Source: Acetobacter musti (GTDB lineage Bacteria > Pseudomonadota > Alphaproteobacteria > Acetobacterales > Acetobacteraceae). From it: a stretch of 64,000 nucleotides of DNA. A program made the position numbers and the translations under genes. The stretch is taken from NCBI RefSeq assembly GCF_011516835.1, contig NZ_WOTB01000006.1, positions 62,001-126,000 of the forward strand. Direction: 5' to 3'. Position 1 is the first letter of the stretch. Each line of letters opens with the position of its first letter. A model generated the notes under the pieces. It did no database searches and was not told the origin of the DNA. It saw only the letters and a list, made by a program, of their open reading frames with translations. This document shows positions 8,956-18,196 of this stretch, piece by piece.

Positions 8956-10212
8956 ATGACCCGATTTGCTATGAAAACCCCGCTCAGTAATCGCAAAGCC
9001 GTCATCATCGCCATAGCGGCCTGTGTCCTGATCAGTTTTCTGCGCTGGCCCGAGCTTCTGCTCGACGCTCAGTTCTGGGGCGAGGACGGCTGGTACTGGT
9101 GGCCCGAAGCGCGTGCATTCGGTTTTAGCAGCCTCCTGCTGCCCCATACAGGATACTTCCAGACAGACGCCCGCATGGTCGCCCTGCTGGCCAGCCCGTT
9201 TCCCCTTTCCCGGGGACCAACACTCTTCGCGCTGGCCGCTCTGATATTTGACGTCATGCCAGCCGCCTTCCTCATCTCAGGCCGCTGCGCCAGTCTCTGT
9301 CCGTCGCTCCCGCTCCGTATATTCATCGGATTTCTCTGGTGCGCCATGCCCAACACATGGGAGGTCCACGGCAATCTTACGAACAGCCAGTGGCATCTCG
9401 CGGTCCTTTCTCTCCTCATTCTCATGTCCGCAACTCCCGCAACAAAAGCCGGACTGACGTTCGATACGGTCATGCTCGCACTCGGCTGCGTCAGCGGACC
9501 ATTCTGTATCTTCCTGGCGCCTGTCAGCGCAATCCTGGCATGGCGGCACCCCTCCGGCACCAGACTGGCAAGACTTGCCATCGTCATGGCGGGCGCGCTC
9601 ATCCAGATCAGCGCACTTTCCATGGGCGCGCGCAGCGCCATGCCCAGTCTTGGAGCGACGCCGATCAGTTTCATCAGACTGATGGCCGGACAGGTTTTCC
9701 TGGCTCCCCTCGTCGGGCACCGGCATCTGCCACAGTGGTACGCCACCGGACCATGGCGAAGCGGTCTTCTGCCCTGGATCGCAGCCCTCACCGGTTTCTG
9801 GCTGTGTATCGACGCCGCGCGGCGCTGGCCCGTCATCCGTCTGGCCGGACTGTTCACCCTTCTGACGCTGTGCGCCAGCCTGTCGCACCCGGTTCCCGGC
9901 GACGATGGCAGCCCCGTCTGGGTCAGCATGCGCAACCTTGACAGCAATATGCGCTATCTTTTTCTGCCGCTCGTCTTCTGGATGACAGTCCTCGCCGTAA
10001 CGACCTTCGCCGCACCACGCGGATGGGCAAAAGGCGTCGCCACCGGCGCCCTGCTGGTCAGCCTGTTCTCCGGTATCCCGAGAGACTGGCGCTTCCCGGC
10101 CGTTCCCGACCGTCATTTCTATGATATTGCCCGCGAATACGATAAAGCCCCGCCGGGAACCCGGTTCGTTATTCCGGTCCGTCCGGGCAGGCAGGCCGTT
10201 TACATAAAGTAA
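8956..10212 (+). CDS. Polytopic membrane protein, possible GT-C type glycosyltransferase
   Basis: A 418-residue hydrophobic protein with about ten predicted membrane segments. The first (AVIIAIAACVLISFL) is followed by an acidic loop QFWGEDGWYWWPEARAF. An early periplasmic loop with acidic residues after the first span is typical of GT-C fold sugar transferases, but no assigned family motif is seen, so this is inference. Later loops hold EVHGNLTNSQWHLAVL and DDGSPVWVSMRNLDSNMRYL. The start has AAGAAGAG upstream. It stands alone between the methyltransferase and the ribosomal operon; a role in surface glycan assembly is possible but unproven. Confidence 0.6.
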   Translation: MTRFAMKTPLSNRKAVIIAIAACVLISFLRWPELLLDAQFWGEDGWYWWPEARAFGFSSLLLPHTGYFQTDARMVALLASPFPLSRGPTLFALAALIFDVMPAAFLISGRCASLCPSLPLRIFIGFLWCAMPNTWEVHGNLTNSQWHLAVLSLLILMSATPATKAGLTFDTVMLALGCVSGPFCIFLAPVSAILAWRHPSGTRLARLAIVMAGALIQISALSMGARSAMPSLGATPISFIRLMAGQVFLAPLVGHRHLPQWYATGPWRSGLLPWIAALTGFWLCIDAARRWPVIRLAGLFTLLTLCASLSHPVPGDDGSPVWVSMRNLDSNMRYLFLPLVFWMTVLAVTTFAAPRGWAKGVATGALLVSLFSGIPRDWRFPAVPDRHFYDIAREYDKAPPGTRFVIPVRPGRQAVYIK

Positions 10213-10397
10213 AACCCATCCTCTGCTTGCTTTCCCGCTCCATTCGTGCTTGATGCCGCTTCTTCCCTGCCGGGCGCGCGGCATCGCTCCCGGCTATACC
10301 CGTCGCGCAACATGGTTCCGGCTCAGCCGCCAGAACAGCGCACCATCGCGGAACGGTCCGCAATGGTCTGGGTTGAAGCAATCCGGAGGGACACACA

Positions 10398-10868
10398 GTG
10401 CCACTGTACGAAACCGTGCTCATCGCACGTAACGATATCAACCAGCAGCAGGTTGAAGCCATCGCCGAAGGTATCAAAACGTACCTCGAAGGCGAGAACG
10501 GCTCCATCAAAAAGCAGGAATACTGGGGCCTTCGCTCCCTGGCATACCGCATCAAGAAGAACCGCAAGGGCCATTACATGCTCCTCGGTCTCGATGCGTC
10601 CGCGCCGGCCCTGAAGGAAGTCGAGCGTCAGCTCGCCCTGAACGAAGACGTGCTCCGCGTCCTCACTCTGCGCGTCGAGGAAATCGACGAGGCTCCGTCT
10701 CCGGTTCTGTCCCGCAAGGGCGATGACCGCGGCGACCGTGGCGATCGCGGCAACTTCCGTGGCCCGAAGCCGTCCGGCCGGTTCGAGAGCGGCCGTTCGC
10801 GCCGTTCCTATGACGACCGCGAGGAATATCGCGCTCGTGACGAAAACCCCGAGCCGAAAGCGGAGTAA
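10398..10868 (+). CDS. rpsF: 30S ribosomal protein S6
   Basis: Binds S18 and 16S rRNA in the platform of the small subunit. A GTG start is used, with GGAGGG eight bases upstream. [20 protein letters not shown] and [19 protein letters not shown] are the family core, ending around residue 100. The remaining ~50 residues form a charged tail with repeated Arg-Gly-Asp units ([14 protein letters not shown]) and an acidic end; many alphaproteobacterial S6 proteins carry such tails. It is the first gene of the rpsF-rpsR-rplI operon, six bases before rpsR. The sequence from 10213 to 10397 is the only leader space. Confidence 0.97.
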
Positions 10869-10874
10869 GGTCAG

Positions 10875-11150
10875 ATGTCCGACACAACCGAAGTCAATCC
10901 AGCCGGCCGCCGCACCGCCGTCGGCGCGCGTCGTCCGTTCTACCGTCGTCGCAAGGCATGCCCGTTCTCCGGTCCCAACGCGCCGAAGATCGATTACAAG
11001 GACGTCCGTCTGCTCAGCCGGTTCCTGTCCGAGCGCGGCAAGATCGTCCCGAGCCGTATCACCGCGGTATCCGCGAAGAAGCAGCGCGAACTAGCCCAGG
11101 CCATCAAGCGCGCCCGTTTCCTCGCCCTGCTGCCCTACGTCGTAGGCTGA
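10875..11150 (+). CDS. rpsR: 30S ribosomal protein S18
   Basis: A 91-residue basic protein of the small subunit platform that forms a heterodimer with S6. The family signature is clear: [20 protein letters not shown], then [20 protein letters not shown] and [20 protein letters not shown]. It sits in the middle of the rpsF-rpsR-rplI operon, with 13 bases between it and rplI. Confidence 0.98.
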
Positions 11151-11163
11151 GGAGAGGCATATC

Positions 11164-11748
11164 ATGGCTGCTACAGAAGTAATCCTCCTTCAGCGCGTTG
11201 AGCATCTGGGCCAGATGGGCGACCTCGTGAAGGTGAAACCGGGCTATGCCCGTAACTTCCTCCTGCCCCAGGGCAAGGCCATCCGCGCGAACGCCGCCAA
11301 CCGCGAGCGTTTCGAGCGTGAGCGCGCCCAGCTCGAGGCCACCAACATCAAGCGTCGCGAGGAGGCCGAGCGTCTCTCCGAGCGTATGGAAGGCCTCACC
11401 GTCGTCCTGATCCGTCAGGCCGGCGACGCAGGCAACCTCTACGGCTCGGTGTCCACCCGCGACATCGCCCTGGCCACCACGGAAGCCGGTCTGACCGTCA
11501 CCCGTAACCAGGTGTTCCTGCCGCACCCGATCAAGAGCCTGGGGCTGTACGACGTCCGCGTCGACCTGCACCCGGAAGTCTCGATCCATGTGCGCGTCAA
11601 CGTGGCCCGCTCGGCTGAAGAAGCCGAGCGTCAGGCCAAAGGCGAAGTCATCGGCACCGAAGAAGACGAATACGAGCTTCCCGTTCCCGACGACGCGGAA
11701 GACGCCGGGGCGGAAGCCACGGCCGAAGGCGAGACAGCCGCCGTCTGA
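11164..11748 (+). CDS. rplI: 50S ribosomal protein L9
   Basis: Binds 23S rRNA near the L1 stalk base. Residues 1-50 hold the family motif [20 protein letters not shown], then [15 protein letters not shown] long helix follows, then the C-terminal domain ([19 protein letters not shown]). A Glu/Asp/Ala-rich tail of about 40 residues extends beyond the usual ~150. GGAGAGG precedes the ATG. It closes the operon and is followed by a strong terminator. A decayed copy of its 3' half lies at 13521-13785. Confidence 0.98.
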
Positions 11749-11775
11749 CGGCAGCTTTCCTCCGCAAAGTTACAG

Positions 11776-11809
11776 AAAACCCCGGAAGAACACTTCCGGG
11801 GTTTTTTTA
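11776..11809 (+). terminator. Intrinsic terminator of the rpsF-rpsR-rplI operon
   Basis: AACCCCGGAAG pairs perfectly with CTTCCGGGGTT around a four-base loop (AACA), and the right arm runs into a T tract. It starts 28 bases after the rplI stop. Confidence 0.92.
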
Positions 11810-11815
11810 TTATCC

Positions 11816-11890
11816 GGCTTTCCTCCGGGACTTTGCCCCGAACCCCATAAAGGGGCGCGCCCCTTTGATCCCGATTTGTCAAATAACGGA
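11816..11890 (+). repeat. GC-rich hairpin repeat (family B), copy 2
   Basis: GGGACTTTGCCCCGAACCCC followed by the perfect palindrome AAAGGGGCGCGCCCCTTT, then GATCCCGATTTGTCAAAT. Same order of parts as the copies at 7371-7438 and 59432-59494. It lies just beyond the ribosomal terminator. Confidence 0.7.
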
Positions 11891-11992
11891 GCCTGTCATG
11901 CACAGCACGCTCCCGCGTGAGGCAGGATGGACCCCAGCTCTGAAACCCGCATAACCCGCGGTTCCCCGATAAAATCCGGGTACCGCACCCGG

Positions 11993-13441
11993 TTACCGCG
12001 CCAGCGCCAGCACGCCGTCCAGATCGATACTCCGCTCCAGCACCTCCGCGATCTCATCCAGCGCAGCATTCACCATGATCTCATGATCGACGGCATCGCT
12101 CCGCACTCCCATCTGCGCCATCAGCGCGGACCGAAACCCAGGCGCCCCCAGCAGTCCGTGACAATACGTCCCCATCACCCGCCCGTTCCCGCTGACCGCC
12201 CCGTCGCTCCGTCCGTCATCCAGCCGCGCAAACGGACGAACATCCCCACGCCACGTCTCTTTCCCCACATGAATTTCATAGCCCAAGAAATCCGCGCCCA
12301 GCGCCACACCGGAAACCCGCGTCAGCACCTTATGCCCCGCCAGCTCCGTATCAGTCTCCAGCAATCCCAGCCCCGCCATTTCCTCCGCATCACCCTCAAG
12401 CCCCTGCGGATCGGCAATCCGCCGCCCGAGCATCTGATAGCCGCCGCAAATCCCCAGTATCCGGCCACCCTGCCGGTAATGAGCCAGAATATCGACATCC
12501 CAGCCCTCCCGGCGCAAAAACTTCATGTCGGTAACAACAGCTTTCGAGCCCGGCAGGACAATCAGCGCCGCATCGGCCGGGATCGGCCGCCCCGGCGGCA
12601 CCATCGCCACCTCAATCTCAGCTTCATGCCGAAGCGGATCGAGATCGTCGAAATTCGCGATATGCGGCAGGACAGGACACGCCACAATCCGCCGCCGCTC
12701 CGATAAAACCGCATCCTTTTCCAGAACAACCGCATCCTCGGCCGGAAGCCGCCGCGCAGCCCCCATCCACGGCACAAGCCCCAGCCCCGTCCAGCCGGTC
12801 AGTTCCTCAATCGCCCGATACCCGTCCTGAAAAAGCGCTGCATCCCCACGAAATTTATTGATGATAAACCCACATATCTGCCGGCTGTCCTCCCCGGACA
12901 GCACCGCCTTCGTCCCGACCACCGACGCAATAACGCCGCCCCGGTCGATGTCTCCGACAAGGATCACCGGCACATCCGCCGCAAGCGCAAACCCCATATT
13001 GGCAATATCGCCATCCCGCAGATTGATCTCCGCCGGAGATCCCGCACCCTCCACGACAACAAGATCGGCATTGTCCCGCAAACGCCTGAAACTGCCGAGC
13101 ACCTCAGGCAAAAGCGAGCGTCTGTCCTCACGGAAACGGTCCGAATGCAGCATCCCGCACATCTGGCCATGCACGATCAGCTGCGACGACCTGTCACTCT
13201 GCGGCTTCAGCAATACCGGATTCATGTCCACAACCGGCTCAGCCCGCGCCGCCACAGCCTGAAGCGCCTGCGCCCGCCCGATCTCCCCGCCATCCGCCGT
13301 CACCGCCGCATTGTTCGACATGTTCTGAGGCTTGAACGGCGCCACCCGCAGCCCCCGGTTCGCAAACGCCCGGCACAGCCCGGCAACAAGAACCGACTTG
13401 CCAACATCAGAACCCGTGCCCTGAACCATGATCGCAACCAT
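11993..13441 (-). CDS. cobQ: Cobyric acid synthase CobQ
   Basis: Amidates four carboxyl groups of adenosylcobyrinic a,c-diamide using glutamine and ATP, in late cobalamin synthesis. The N-terminal half is a dethiobiotin-synthetase-like NTPase: MVQGTGSDVGKSVLVAGLCR (P-loop), PFKPQNMSNNAAVTADGGEI and LVVVEGAGSPAEINLRDGDI. The C-terminal half is a class I glutamine amidotransferase with GGRILGICGGYQMLGR (nucleophile Cys) and a late His in MGTYCHGLLGAPGFR. The ATG at 13441 (MVAIMVQG) fits the family; a GTG at 13450 has its purine run too close. It is the only cobalamin gene here, and no cobalamin riboswitch was recognised upstream. It runs opposite to rplI and lies between rplI and the rplI remnant. 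Confidence 0.96.
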   Translation of the reverse strand: MVAIMVQGTGSDVGKSVLVAGLCRAFANRGLRVAPFKPQNMSNNAAVTADGGEIGRAQALQAVAARAEPVVDMNPVLLKPQSDRSSQLIVHGQMCGMLHSDRFREDRRSLLPEVLGSFRRLRDNADLVVVEGAGSPAEINLRDGDIANMGFALAADVPVILVGDIDRGGVIASVVGTKAVLSGEDSRQICGFIINKFRGDAALFQDGYRAIEELTGWTGLGLVPWMGAARRLPAEDAVVLEKDAVLSERRRIVACPVLPHIANFDDLDPLRHEAEIEVAMVPPGRPIPADAALIVLPGSKAVVTDMKFLRREGWDVDILAHYRQGGRILGICGGYQMLGRRIADPQGLEGDAEEMAGLGLLETDTELAGHKVLTRVSGVALGADFLGYEIHVGKETWRGDVRPFARLDDGRSDGAVSGNGRVMGTYCHGLLGAPGFRSALMAQMGVRSDAVDHEIMVNAALDEIAEVLERSIDLDGVLALAR

Positions 13442-13520
13442 CGATCCCACATCTCCGTCTCATCGCGATGGCAGCTTTTTGTCTGCAATCTTCTTCCGCG
13501 GGTCTCCTGTGGACCCCACC

Positions 13521-13785
13521 AGGCTGTTCACCCTGATCCGCCAGCCGGGCGAAGCAGATAATGCCTGCGACCCAATGTCCACCCGCGACATCGCCCTGAC
13601 CATCACGAAAGCCGCCTCATCACCGTTCGGGACAGGAGTTCCTGCCACACCCGATCATAAGCCTGGGTCCGGATAACCTCCGCGCCGATCTGCACCCGGA
13701 AGTCCCGATCTGCATACGCGTGAACGTCGTTCACTCGGCTGAAGAAACCGGACGCCAGACCAAAGGCGAAACAGCCACCATCTGA
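13521..13785 (+). pseudogene. Decayed partial copy of rplI (3' half)
   Basis: The plus strand here aligns with the last ~350 bases of the intact rplI. The shared stretch GTCCACCCGCGACATCGCCC is identical, as are CTGCACCCGGAAGTC, CACTCGGCTGAAGAA-like sequence and CAAAGGCGAA. The offset between the copies is 2126 bases before and 2124 bases after the middle, so a net two-base change breaks the frame. Relative to rplI, 87 bases encoding the acidic tail are missing, exactly between two AAGGCGA repeats. Similarity continues past the stop (CTGCAAAGTAAAAAACC against CCGCAAAGTTACAGAAAACC), but the terminator hairpin is lost. There is no start or ribosome site. Confidence 0.85.
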
Positions 13786-13931
13786 CGCCATCTCACCTCT
13801 GCAAAGTAAAAAACCATCGCATCGTCATCAGCAGGGCAGGGGAGCCAGAGCAAGAACCAGGCATAATCGTTTGCCCCGGTGTCAGGAACCGGGACGTCTC
13901 TCAACCAGCCCGGATAACACCCTGCGAACCG

Positions 13932-15029
13932 TCAGGACCGCTGTACGGCAATCCTGGCTCCGACAGCATTCAGACAGGCAGAAATTTTCGTCCTTGACCA
14001 TTTCTGCAAAGGCATTTCGAGAAGTCTGTAACTCAGAGCAGACATCATTACGGTTACCACCGCCGCCAGGAAGGTTCCGGAATAAGGCCCCACCGCATGC
14101 AGAACACCGGATTTTCCGAGCCAGTAATAAACAGGGATATGCAGAAGATACACAGAGAAACTTATCGCTCCCAGAAAAACCATTGCCCGATTTCCGAAAA
14201 CAAAATCCCCAAATCTGCTTTCATATGACAGACACATCACAATGAACCCTGTCACCAGAACGCGCAGGATATTCCCATAAAATACCGAATACGATGGATC
14301 CAGCGCCCGGTTAAATGTGGTTCGTCCAAAAAGATCACCGTAATGATAGTTAAACAATATAACCAGTAACAACAAAAATCCCACACAACCAACAATGTTT
14401 ACCGAAAGGTTATTTAAATTTTTTAGTTTTCCGAATCTTAAAAATGAAAATAAAATCCCTGTTGAAAATATATGAAATTTTGATGTGAAAATAACTCCGG
14501 GGATATGCCGCATTGTCATAATCCCAAAACACGAAACGATAAAAAGAAACGAAAAACATATTATTTTATTTTCGAATCTATTGAACAGGAACCATATAAA
14601 TATAAAAACAAAATAGAACTGAAACTCAGGCCCTATGGACCAGAAAACGGAAGCGCTCCCGTTAAATGTTAATAATCTCACAAGCTGAACATCTGTAATA
14701 TTATAGATAAAATCATGATCAATTGTTTTATATATAAAAAACCCGCATAGAACTATTATATAATAAATAGGAACAATTCGCGCAATTCGCGCTGATATGT
14801 ATCTGGAAACCGTATGCCCGTTAAAAGGCTGCGCAAGATACAGTGTGCCCATCAGAAATCCGCTCAGCGCGAAAAAAATCAGCACACCATAATGACTGAC
14901 AGAAGGCGCAAGAAACGACGCACACCCGAATTCAGGCGCATGCCCCGACAGGACCATCAGCGCCGCGAGGCCACGCAAACCATCCAGAGCAGGCATATGT
15001 TTTCGCGTCGGAGAAAAACTGTCTGCCAT
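13932..15029 (-). CDS. Acyltransferase family 3 (OafA/YrhL-like) membrane protein
   Basis: A 365-residue polytopic membrane O-acyltransferase, probably modifying surface polysaccharide or lipid. Family marks are MPALDGLRGLAALMVLSGH at the N-terminus (with the conserved His) and YGVLIFFALSGFLMG. About ten spans follow, ending in LGAISFSVYLLHIPVYYWLG and ALSYRLLEMPLQKW. The gene is much richer in A and T (especially 14340-14790) than everything around it, with many Phe/Ile/Lys/Asn codons; this suggests recent transfer, as is common for surface-antigen genes. It is divergent from cfa. The acceptor molecule is unknown. Confidence 0.9.
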   Translation of the reverse strand: MADSFSPTRKHMPALDGLRGLAALMVLSGHAPEFGCASFLAPSVSHYGVLIFFALSGFLMGTLYLAQPFNGHTVSRYISARIARIVPIYYIIVLCGFFIYKTIDHDFIYNITDVQLVRLLTFNGSASVFWSIGPEFQFYFVFIFIWFLFNRFENKIICFSFLFIVSCFGIMTMRHIPGVIFTSKFHIFSTGILFSFLRFGKLKNLNNLSVNIVGCVGFLLLLVILFNYHYGDLFGRTTFNRALDPSYSVFYGNILRVLVTGFIVMCLSYESRFGDFVFGNRAMVFLGAISFSVYLLHIPVYYWLGKSGVLHAVGPYSGTFLAAVVTVMMSALSYRLLEMPLQKWSRTKISACLNAVGARIAVQRS

Positions 15030-15162
15030 AATTCACTCATCTTTTTTTAAAATGCCATTTCCCTTATGTCATCTTAACGACTGATCCGGAACCTTGTTTA
15101 CCGTCCGGTACCATGAAATATCCGGCGCAGATGAGTAAAGTATCGATGAGGAAAATAAAATT

Positions 15163-16377
15163 ATGAACAAGCCACTCGATTACATCCTCAGAAAGTTCAT
15201 CTCAGCCGGATCTCTGGACGTCACCTTCGCCAACGGAAAAACGTCACATTATCAGGGCACCACACCCGGCCCCCACGCCGCCATGCGTCTGACAACACCC
15301 GCCGCCGAGCGCAGCCTTCTCCTCAATCCCGGCCTCGGCTTCGGTGAATCCTGGATGGACGGCAGCATCACCCCCCTGAACTGCACCCTCTACGACCTGC
15401 TCCACGTCCTCATGCTCAACGCCATGAATCCAGCCGGCCATATCGGTGAATCTCTCGCCGCCGCCGCCCGCTATCTCCGCCGGAAAAAAATCCAGTTCAA
15501 CCCGGAATCCCGCTCCCGCAAAAACGTCGCCCACCATTACGATCTCGGCGAACCGCTCTACGATCTCTTCCTCGATAAAGACCGCCAGTATTCCTGCGCA
15601 TATTTCCGAACCGGCAATGAAACCCTCGACGAAGCCCAGGAAGCCAAGAAACACCACATCGCCGCCAAACTCCTGCTCAACCGGCCAGATCTTTCCGTCC
15701 TCGATATCGGCTGCGGCTGGGGCGGCATGGCGCTTACACTGGCAAAAGATTACGGCGCCACCGTCACCGGCGTCACTCTCTCCACCGAACAGCTCCGCAC
15801 CGCCCGCGCCCGCGCCGAAGCCGCCGCCCTCTCAGACCGCGTCCGCTTCGAACTGATGGATTACCGCCACGTCAGCACCCAATACGACCGCATCGTCTCC
15901 GTCGGCATGTTCGAACATGTCGGTATCGCCCATTACCGGACCTTCTTCGAAAAAATCCGCGACTGCCTCACCGAAGACGGCGTCGCCCTGATCCACTCCA
16001 TCGGCCGCAACGACGGCCCCGGAACCACCAACCCCTGGATCGACAAATACATCTTCCCCGGCGGTTACTCGCCCTGTCTCAGCGAAACCTTCGCCGCCAT
16101 CGAACCCACCGGCCTGTGGGTCACGGACTGCGAAATCCTCCGCCTCCATTACGCGAAAACCATCGCCATCTGGCGCGACCGCTTCGCAAAAAACCGCGAC
16201 AAAGCCAAAGCCCTCTACGACGAACGCTTCTGCCGCATGTTCGAGTTCTACCTCGCCGGCGCCGAACTCTCCTTCCGCGTCCAGGGCCACATGAACTTCC
16301 AGCTTCAGCTCACCCGCAGCCAGACCGCCGTCCCTCTGACCCGCGACTACATCACCGGGGCCGAAAACCGCGCCTGA
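15163..16377 (+). CDS. cfa: Cyclopropane-fatty-acyl-phospholipid synthase
   Basis: Transfers a methylene group from SAM to cis double bonds of membrane phospholipid acyl chains, usually in stationary phase or acid stress. It is 404 residues. The N-terminal lipid-binding region is followed by YSCAYFRTGNETLDEAQEAK, where the Cys matches the family's conserved position. The SAM motif is VLDIGCGWGGMALTLAKDYG, then GVTLSTEQL. Later come SVGMFEHVGIAHYRTFF and PWIDKYIFPGGYSPCLSE. A GAGGAAAAT purine run precedes the ATG. It stands alone; the 310-base gap that follows holds only an inverted repeat and repeat-like debris. Confidence 0.93.
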   Translation: MNKPLDYILRKFISAGSLDVTFANGKTSHYQGTTPGPHAAMRLTTPAAERSLLLNPGLGFGESWMDGSITPLNCTLYDLLHVLMLNAMNPAGHIGESLAAAARYLRRKKIQFNPESRSRKNVAHHYDLGEPLYDLFLDKDRQYSCAYFRTGNETLDEAQEAKKHHIAAKLLLNRPDLSVLDIGCGWGGMALTLAKDYGATVTGVTLSTEQLRTARARAEAAALSDRVRFELMDYRHVSTQYDRIVSVGMFEHVGIAHYRTFFEKIRDCLTEDGVALIHSIGRNDGPGTTNPWIDKYIFPGGYSPCLSETFAAIEPTGLWVTDCEILRLHYAKTIAIWRDRFAKNRDKAKALYDERFCRMFEFYLAGAELSFRVQGHMNFQLQLTRSQTAVPLTRDYITGAENRA

Positions 16378-16487
16378 CCCCGAACAGGCGAAACAGTTTT
16401 TCGGACCCTTATCCCGAAACCCATGAAGGATCGTGCTCCGAAATCAAAAAGAGACGCTCCCAAAAGGATCACCTGCGGACAGAAACC

Positions 16488-16507
16488 CCGCCGGAAAATT
16501 CCGGCGG
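16488..16507. repeat. Perfect inverted repeat after cfa
   Basis: CCGCCGGAA and TTCCGGCGG are separated by two bases (AA). There is no T run, so it is not a typical intrinsic terminator, although it could stall polymerase or stabilise the cfa transcript end. The rest of the gap 16378-16687 holds a weak match to repeat family B (CGGACCCTTATCCCGAAACC near 16402) and no gene. Confidence 0.5.
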
Positions 16508-16687
16508 ACCTCCCGTAAACCCGAAAAAAATCAGCTAAACGAAAGCTTATTTCAGCCAGGAAGCATCCCAGGCGCCGTATAACCGGCAGAACCAAATCCC
16601 CCGGCCTCTTACGCTGTCAGAACTCCGCCCTCTGCCGTGCCTTCCCCATCAATCCATTTCCCCACGGCAGCAAAAGCCCCGCCGCAG

Positions 16688-18196
16688 TCACACGGCTTCA
16701 TGCGGCAGCCCGAAAACCTCCACCTGATCGAAATGCAGATAAGTCCGGCTCAGGATCGTAATCCTGACAAAGCGACCACACACCGGGACAGACGCCACCC
16801 AGCGATAAGGCGTTCCGTCAGCCCCGCCGGGCGGCACACCCCCGAAATCATGCCGATGAACCTCGGAAAACCTGACACCGTCATCCGAGACCGTAATCGA
16901 AATCGCGCTGCAGCGCGCCGCGACCGCCGGATGGTCGATCCTGTTGTAAATCCTGACCTCGTTAATATCGCACAGGCCGCCAAAATCCGTCTGCCACCAC
17001 GGATTGTCCTCCTCTGCCGTATGACACTGATAAATCCCGGTCAGATACCCGCTCACAGCCCCTTCCGCCGTGCGCGTCCTGCCTTCGTCGTGCGGATACA
17101 CCGAACTCTGCGAAGCCTGTCCCGTCCGCGACAGATTCACCCCGAAACCCTCATCCCGGAAAATCAACGGCGAAACAGTCCGGCCCATATCCGGAATCAC
17201 CGTCGGACTTAACGCCCCGCTCTCGAATTTCCCGATGCAGGACAAAATGGAGCGCCCGAACGCCTCCACATCCCGTATCCGGCAGACCAGCGAAAAAGAG
17301 TCAGTCCGCCCGGTCTGCTCCAGATCATCGCTGAACAGATGCAGCACCCGGTTCGAACCGTAAGCATCCAGCAGCAGCTGATTGCTCGACGCATAACAGT
17401 CCCGGTTGATCAGGATAATATCCCTGCCGTCAAAAAAATTGCAGAGATGAAAAGAAGAACTCGAAAACCCGATAAACTTTCCATGCGTGGCCCAGAATTG
17501 CAGCTGCTCCTCAAACTGGAACTGCTCCGGCGCCACGCATTTCACACCGTTCTTTTCCAGAAACTCACACAGCGCATCCTCGTTTTCGACAGAGAACACA
17601 CCCCGTCTCACCAGATGCTTCGTAATATAAACAAAAGATTCGGAAGCCTCGTCGGAAAAAGGGTAAATACTCCTCACCGACTGGTTATAGCGCTCGCTGA
17701 CCGAGTAATTCTCATTCAGTGCACGCTCGGCAATATAAATCGAAGAAAACACACACGGAGCGTCCACGCGGATCAGCCGGTCCGGCGTCAGACCCAGACG
17801 GCCGAAAATCTTCGCGATAAACTCCTGCTGAAACAGGTCTTCAGCCGGCGGCCCGTAATAAGCAATCCTCACAGAAGCGGGGACCCGATCCAGCGCCCAG
17901 ATACGGCTCAGTGAACTCAGAAGAAAATGCCCGAAATGTCCGAAAATCTCCCCGAGCCAGAAACACATTTCCTCAACGCGACGCACACGACTGACATTCA
18001 CCGTCGCCGTCACATCAGACCCGAGAAGACGATACCCGTCAGCCCCTCTGAAGAACGCCGAGTCAGAAATGATCTGCCCGTTCTCCTTATAAAGAGCATT
18101 CTGCTGCATCAGAACATTTCTGTATAAAGCGAAACTCAGGTCAGACCCCGTGGGAACAGCATATCCATAAAGTCTGGTCGTTTTCCTGAGCGCCAT
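16688..18196 (-). CDS. GT61-like glycosyltransferase fused to a discoidin (F5/8 type C)-like domain
   Basis: A 502-residue protein. Residues ~1-330 resemble the DUF563/GT61 glycosyltransferases of capsule and LPS loci: CFWLGEIFGHFGHFLLSSLS, RIAYYGPPAEDLFQQEFIAK, then FVYITKHLVRRGVFSVENED and KFIGFSSSSFHLCNFF near the acceptor or donor site. Residues ~350-500 look like a galactose-binding jelly roll: SRTGQASQSSVYPHDEGRTR, WWQTDFGGLCDINEVRIYNR, ISITVSDDGVRFSEV, and GRFVRITILSRTYLHFDQVE. In discoidin domains this module binds carbohydrate or lipid. The fusion suggests a transferase that docks on its glycan. It is divergent from the flavin reductase gene downstream in coordinate order. No signal peptide or membrane span is seen. 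Confidence 0.75.
   Translation of the reverse strand: MALRKTTRLYGYAVPTGSDLSFALYRNVLMQQNALYKENGQIISDSAFFRGADGYRLLGSDVTATVNVSRVRRVEEMCFWLGEIFGHFGHFLLSSLSRIWALDRVPASVRIAYYGPPAEDLFQQEFIAKIFGRLGLTPDRLIRVDAPCVFSSIYIAERALNENYSVSERYNQSVRSIYPFSDEASESFVYITKHLVRRGVFSVENEDALCEFLEKNGVKCVAPEQFQFEEQLQFWATHGKFIGFSSSSFHLCNFFDGRDIILINRDCYASSNQLLLDAYGSNRVLHLFSDDLEQTGRTDSFSLVCRIRDVEAFGRSILSCIGKFESGALSPTVIPDMGRTVSPLIFRDEGFGVNLSRTGQASQSSVYPHDEGRTRTAEGAVSGYLTGIYQCHTAEEDNPWWQTDFGGLCDINEVRIYNRIDHPAVAARCSAISITVSDDGVRFSEVHRHDFGGVPPGGADGTPYRWVASVPVCGRFVRITILSRTYLHFDQVEVFGLPHEAV

Follow-up and report, generated by a model that had tools for sequence, protein, structure and literature searches.

In Acetobacter musti (genome G000), a predicted cobyric acid synthase gene (cobQ) of foreign, Sphingomonadales origin lies antisense between the intact gene of ribosomal protein L9 (rplI) and a decayed duplicate of the 3' end of rplI. 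With a probability of roughly 60%, we attribute this arrangement to the insertion of cobQ and the doubling of the rplI end by recombination near the time at which A. musti and the sister species G026 separated. The scar itself is ordinary and of a known kind, and amounts to a roughly dated record of the arrival of a foreign gene next to a ribosomal operon. Of more use is the observation that one foreign cobQ has met opposite fates, i.e., it is dead in G026, which has a native B12 cluster, and intact in A. musti, which is without the tested B12 genes.

Layout of the locus and the second rplI end

The window, i.e., the whole 64-kb stretch of DNA that was analysed, is G000:C6:62001-126000, from an assembly of 4.71 Mb in 138 contigs with a stated completeness of 99.95%. 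The features of the region are given in Table 1. The terminator was recognized by its folding energy and z score and is missing from the pattern-scan list.

Table 1. Features around rplI and cobQ (window positions), with the loci of cobQ on Acetobacter plasmids
Feature	Position	Strand	Evidence or remark
rpsF, ribosomal protein S6, at the start of the ribosomal operon	10398..10868	+	PF01250, 97.6 bits
ORF presumed to be rpsR (ribosomal protein S18)	10875..11150	+	94.5-100% identity to the genes that precede rplI in L154, L155, L159 and L160
rplI, intact, ribosomal protein L9, 194 aa	11164..11748	+	TIGR00158, 136.3 bits (cut-off 58.6); PF01281; PF03948
Predicted intrinsic terminator of the rpsF-rpsR-rplI operon	11774..11807	+	Hairpin of -23.4 kcal/mol with T run, z -6.5
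cobQ, intact, predicted cobyric acid synthase, 485 aa, Sphingomonadales type	11993..13450	-	TIGR00313, trees, motifs
Remnant, decayed second copy of the rplI 3' end	13532..13815	+	blastn, local alignment against shuffles, tree
AAGGCGA, repeat left by the 87-nt deletion	13763..13769	+	Repeat positions
Acyltransferase-3 gene, 41.5% G+C	13932..15029	-	PF01757, 97.7 bits
CMAS-type methyltransferase gene	15163..16377	+	PF02353, 285.6 bits; usual gene after rplI in relatives
Plasmid cobQ loci	L197 8001-9464, L198 8001-9464, L199 8001-9464		

The initial annotation had placed a broken copy of the rplI end at 13521-13808, in the direction of rplI and with the oppositely directed cobQ between the two. 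The coordinates bear out this layout, and the copy is real: blastn of 13532-13770 against its own genome gives a significant match to the end of rplI at 77% identity (E 9.5e-44), and the local alignment with rplI scores 195, compared with a maximum of 28 in 300 dinucleotide-preserving shuffles, which leaves a vanishingly small probability that the resemblance is due to chance. The limits, on the other hand, differ from those first given. Positions 13771-13815 correspond to the rplI end and about 30 nt beyond its stop codon (score 51; 200 shuffles at or below 24), so that the preservation of sequence past the stop, noted earlier, holds. At the left joint, similarity of 13500-13531 to rplI does not rise above that of shuffles, and the remnant is therefore taken to cover 13532-13815. 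The motif AAGGCGA occurs twice in rplI, with starts at 11639 and 11726, but only once, at 13763, in the remnant, which makes the deletion previously suggested between these direct repeats exactly 87 nt long. The terminator hairpin has indeed been lost: no counterpart was found behind the remnant, where 13800-13845 folds at -2.7 kcal/mol (z +1.7), versus the hairpin after rplI listed in Table 1.

The reading frame of the remnant is broken by frame-shifting indels, its 5' part and start are absent, and a protein search reads only residues 115-162 of rplI, in one frame. When the rplI protein was searched against 49 genomes of the genus, rplI was present in 48, and a second rplI-like place was found in A. 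musti only; a weak match in G070 (31%) falls within an ORF of 503 aa and appears to be unrelated. In the plasmid collection, nothing matched the remnant at the DNA level. The stretch behind the remnant has a 33-nt match to G026:C4 (E 1.4e-4), which lies inside a regulator-like 476-aa ORF and was taken as chance, and also a 25-nt match to G008.

The gene order after rplI was counted in 30 loci out of the 48 rplI places. CMAS follows within about 1.5 kb in 25 of these 30, which answers the question of whether rplI directly precedes another gene in relatives. In G011 and G069 an antiporter-like gene stands directly after rplI and is followed by CMAS, and in G019 and G030 neither CMAS nor an antiporter-like gene was seen after rplI. 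A. musti is the sole case of the 30 in which cobQ is the next gene. Since CMAS is the usual gene at this place, the genes and the remnant that separate it from rplI in A. musti, namely cobQ, the rplI remnant, and the acyltransferase gene, were added. The acyltransferase gene has no counterpart in G026, the other sister species G063, or G011, and only weak partial matches (30-34%) in G069; among the matches listed, its plasmid matches are all from Xanthomonas, at 33% identity.

Origin of cobQ and its relatives

The product of the window cobQ passes the cut-offs of TIGR00313 (426.7 bits against 309.9, residues 7-478) and PRK00784 and carries conserved P-loop and GATase Cys and His motifs; like CobQ/CbiP, it is thus predicted to be an intact cobyric acid synthase (EC 6.3.5.10). 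Unlike the usual CobQ/CbiP gene it stands alone, whereas in Sphingomonadales cbiB is found in the DNA around cobQ in 25 of 30 loci. Its identity to the full-length cobQ products of the genus is 53-57%, except for a type of 38-39% in G011 and G069. This divergent second CobQ-like gene is located at L162 (G011:C7:43081-44607; about 39% identical) and also occurs in G069 (C133). Among the best 80 cobQ loci, 31 are from Sphingomonadales, 28 of which are 61-69% identical to the window CobQ and the other three 54-59%. The window cobQ falls inside the main Sphingomonadales clade both in a quick tree of 123 rows (99*) and in a careful tree (100/99*; LG+G4; 61 rows, of which 59 were hand-picked from 124 loci and two are from plasmids). 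The phylogeny of cobQ that had been proposed as a check hence places the gene away from the usual cobQ of the genus and shows it to be foreign, of Sphingomonadales origin. The cobQ of G256, from the same family as A. musti, is identical to that of Acidocella facilis, which makes Acetobacteraceae in the GTDB sense the likely family. When the spacers flanking the window cobQ were compared with the cobQ loci (122 with the cobQ protein), nothing matched at E 0.01, i.e., no donor flanks were found.

The same gene is seen in G026. Between rplI and CMAS, this species has a truncated cobQ with three stops and 78% DNA identity to the window cobQ over 584 nt. At third positions the two differ at 53 of 190, which is close to the value of 0.25 for CMAS of the same pair; the rplI-linked cobQ of the two species is thus shared by descent, and it arrived before they split. 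The stretch in which the remnant would stand is lost from G026, otherwise the most informative species for its history. This species also has a full-length cobQ beside cbiB and bluB-, cobW-, and cobN-like genes, for which CbiB and CobN were confirmed by family and the bluB- and cobW-like names were assigned by eye. When the changes were polarised with six hand-chosen Sphingomonadales loci, 7 changes at positions 1 and 2 fell on the A. musti cobQ and 20 on the G026 pseudogene (p 0.019), which suggests selective constraint on the A. musti gene; the third positions, however, lean in the same direction (3 and 11 changes), so that this falls short of proof.

In G063, rplI and CMAS are separated by 577 bp, and no trace of cobQ was found in this spacer. 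The branching of A. musti, G026, and G063 relative to one another has weak support (bootstrap 50, sites 61/58/51); the insert may thus have been lost from G063 or may never have been present there. The cobQ of G063 is elsewhere, and it is the sister of the window cobQ in the careful tree (98/95*). Vertical descent of this gene from the same event was considered and is unlikely, because the two differ at 180 of 278 third positions compared with a CMAS value of 0.24 for this pair of genomes, and because the rplI place of G063 has no cobQ trace. The G063 gene (L156 end, L157 start; C25/C27) adjoins a trpB-like gene and is interrupted by an insertion sequence, presumably IS1182-like, with terminal repeats alike at 16 of 17 positions and CTAG on both sides.

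Lone cobQ genes are also carried by the Acetobacter plasmids NZ_CP022700, NZ_CP149629, and NZ_CP149626, in which no B12 neighbours are listed in gene tables that are themselves incomplete. Two of these plasmids are typed conjugative and have cobQ between a WD40-repeat gene and a mobF relaxase gene; the third is typed non-mobilizable and has it between a WD40 gene and an AAA ATPase gene. By these records, plasmids carry lone cobQ genes from place to place within Acetobacteraceae. The plasmid genes resemble the window cobQ in standing alone and in their Sphingomonadales affinity; however, two of them form a separate branch within the Sphingomonadales clade of the careful tree (the third is identical to one of them) and are 59-60% identical to the window cobQ, and these plasmids are therefore not its direct source. 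At E 1e-60, cobQ was found in 149 plasmid records from many groups.

Age and formation of the scar

Mismatches between the remnant and the living rplI are spread over codon positions 1, 2, and 3 at 14/77, 12/79, and 19/78, respectively, and the excess at position 3 can be due to substitutions in the living rplI. At codon positions 1 and 2, the difference between functional ribosomal genes in the sister species is 1-2%. The near-even spread is the pattern of a neutral pseudogene, as which, judged by these mismatches, the remnant is best described. Codon positions 1 and 2 give the remnant a branch length of 0.188 ± 0.038 per site. The fourfold distance of CMAS to A. musti, when halved, is 0.204 ± 0.029 for G026 and 0.165 ± 0.024 for G063, and half of the ribosomal fourfold distance is 0.104 ± 0.016 and 0.164 ± 0.022, respectively. 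The remnant branch is thus about half of the species distances, which places the copying near the species split or slightly earlier; the ribosomal value for G026, which is only 0.104, would put it before the split of A. musti and G026. A tree of 15 rows groups the remnant with rplI of A. musti, G026, and G063 (100/98*). Its neighbour in the best tree is G026, at an unstarred 83/67; the alternatives that were tested gave AU p values of 0.106-0.275, so both an earlier and a later duplication are compatible with the tree. By eye, the tail past the stop codon is most similar to that of the A. musti rplI. The suggestion of the initial annotation that the remnant records the arrival of cobQ agrees with this age, although the estimate is too imprecise to prove a single event.

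The reading that we prefer is the following. The ancestor had rplI followed by CMAS, and a lone Sphingomonadales cobQ was placed antisense between them before A. musti and G026 separated. At about the same time, the rplI 3' end would have been doubled, so that it came to be present on both sides of cobQ. The likeliest route would be homologous recombination at the rplI end, either by one crossover with a circle carrying cobQ and a 3' piece of rplI or by tandem duplication of the rplI 3' end together with cobQ, the second cobQ being lost later. The distal copy has since decayed neutrally, with the deletion at AAGGCGA and the loss of the terminator, and the acyltransferase gene entered behind it. 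G026 kept its native B12 cluster and its foreign cobQ died; in A. musti the tested B12 genes would have been lost, rather than lacking from the beginning, whereas the cobQ from outside has stayed intact.

The two mechanisms named at the outset, tandem duplication and insertion through homologous recombination, both fit the anatomy equally, in which a true rplI duplicate flanks a foreign, inserted cobQ. Single-crossover (Campbell-type) integration gives a partial gene duplication flanking an insertion, and the locus resembles its product in the order of a full rplI, an insert, and a direct-repeat, 5'-truncated piece of rplI, with the usual neighbour CMAS beyond. It differs in that no vector backbone or mobility gene was recognized here and no recognizable rplI-CMAS spacer follows the distal copy, since neither the G063 nor the G026 spacer left a trace behind the remnant. 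Pseudogenes formed by partial tandem duplication are a known kind in bacteria, and the broken frame, the about equal decay of the codon positions, and the small deletion between short repeats are in keeping with them; on the other hand, a foreign gene stands between rplI and its copy, and a single cobQ remains. A tandem duplication could have left a second cobQ behind the remnant, where no trace above shuffles was found.

This absence also speaks against the alternative of two separate events, in which cobQ came first and, later and in the A. musti line only, the rplI 3' end and cobQ were tandemly duplicated and one cobQ was deleted. The resemblance of the tail to the A. musti rplI and a tree joining the remnant to A. 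musti that is not rejected (p-AU 0.275) speak for such a history, whereas the decay of the remnant corresponds to about the whole time since the split, and the best tree, without support, has the remnant beside G026; we regard it as rather unlikely. Repeats of a gene's 3' end around an insert are the usual footprint of site-specific integrative elements, and the remnant could accordingly be the second attachment site of an element that has decayed to cobQ. However, the repeat consists of about 284 nt of spread, approximately 80% identity instead of a short, perfect att core, no integrase was found by a family scan of the seven main genes at 8956-18196 (one of which has no family match), and no other rplI 3' fragment was found in the 49 genus genomes, which makes this origin very improbable. 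Equally little favours a piece of rplI imported with cobQ from its donor. The cobQ itself is foreign, but its affinity is with Sphingomonadales, whereas the remnant groups with rplI of A. musti and its sister species and matches A. musti even past the stop; such an import is highly improbable unless the vehicle first passed through a near sister species.

Retention of a lone cobQ

The B12 pathway genes looked for in A. musti besides cobQ were CobD, CobS, and CobN. The whole genome has no match to CobD/CbiB, CobS, or CobN, compared with matches in 8, 10, and 5 of 14 control genomes for CobD, CobS, and CobN, respectively, and the intact cobQ is therefore an orphan. Of a B12 cluster of the G026 type, A. 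musti matches nothing beyond cobQ itself and two short stretches, 24 and 47 nt long. No B12 riboswitch was matched by Rfam at the gathering threshold within the 64-kb window. Across the genus, cobQ is matched in 43 of 49 genomes and CobD in 40; a cobQ match without one to CobD is seen in three, A. musti, G063, and G010, the last of which is 91% complete, so that a gap is possible. G063 also has no CobS or CobN match, and together with the disruption of its cobQ by the insertion sequence, this speaks for a relic. The intact cobQ of A. musti is most likely a late relic as well. To our knowledge, no route leads onward from the CobQ product when CobD is missing. Two matches to B12-binding domains above the cut-off, one of them in a 1223-aa ORF, suggest that A. 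musti is likely to use imported B12. Many genomes hold partial B12 pathways, and some have been suggested to be losing them, as reported in one study (PMC6461909).

A different explanation of the intact gene is that a lone CobQ, moved repeatedly from Sphingomonadales to Acetobacteraceae, has a use beyond de novo B12 synthesis. Such lone genes are placed at rplI in A. musti, beside trpB in G063, perhaps in G035, and on the Acetobacter plasmids. This explanation, for which retention is seen in one genome, is improbable in our judgment. A deacetylase called CobQ in Aeromonas was considered as a precedent and set aside, as it is described as a ParA-like protein of about 254-264 aa (PMC11856932). 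Among the literature titles and abstract openings listed, none mentioned an rplI remnant, or a cobQ without its pathway, for acetic acid bacteria. Given the opposite fates of the gene in the two species and the lone plasmid genes, one can test whether a cobyric acid synthase that stands alone is no more than a relic or has an action of its own. In G035, the usual cobQ is on C154, and a second, lone, long-branch cobQ (L045 1471-2952; G035:C194) was observed beside genes that by eye are RidA-like and ABC-transporter-like.
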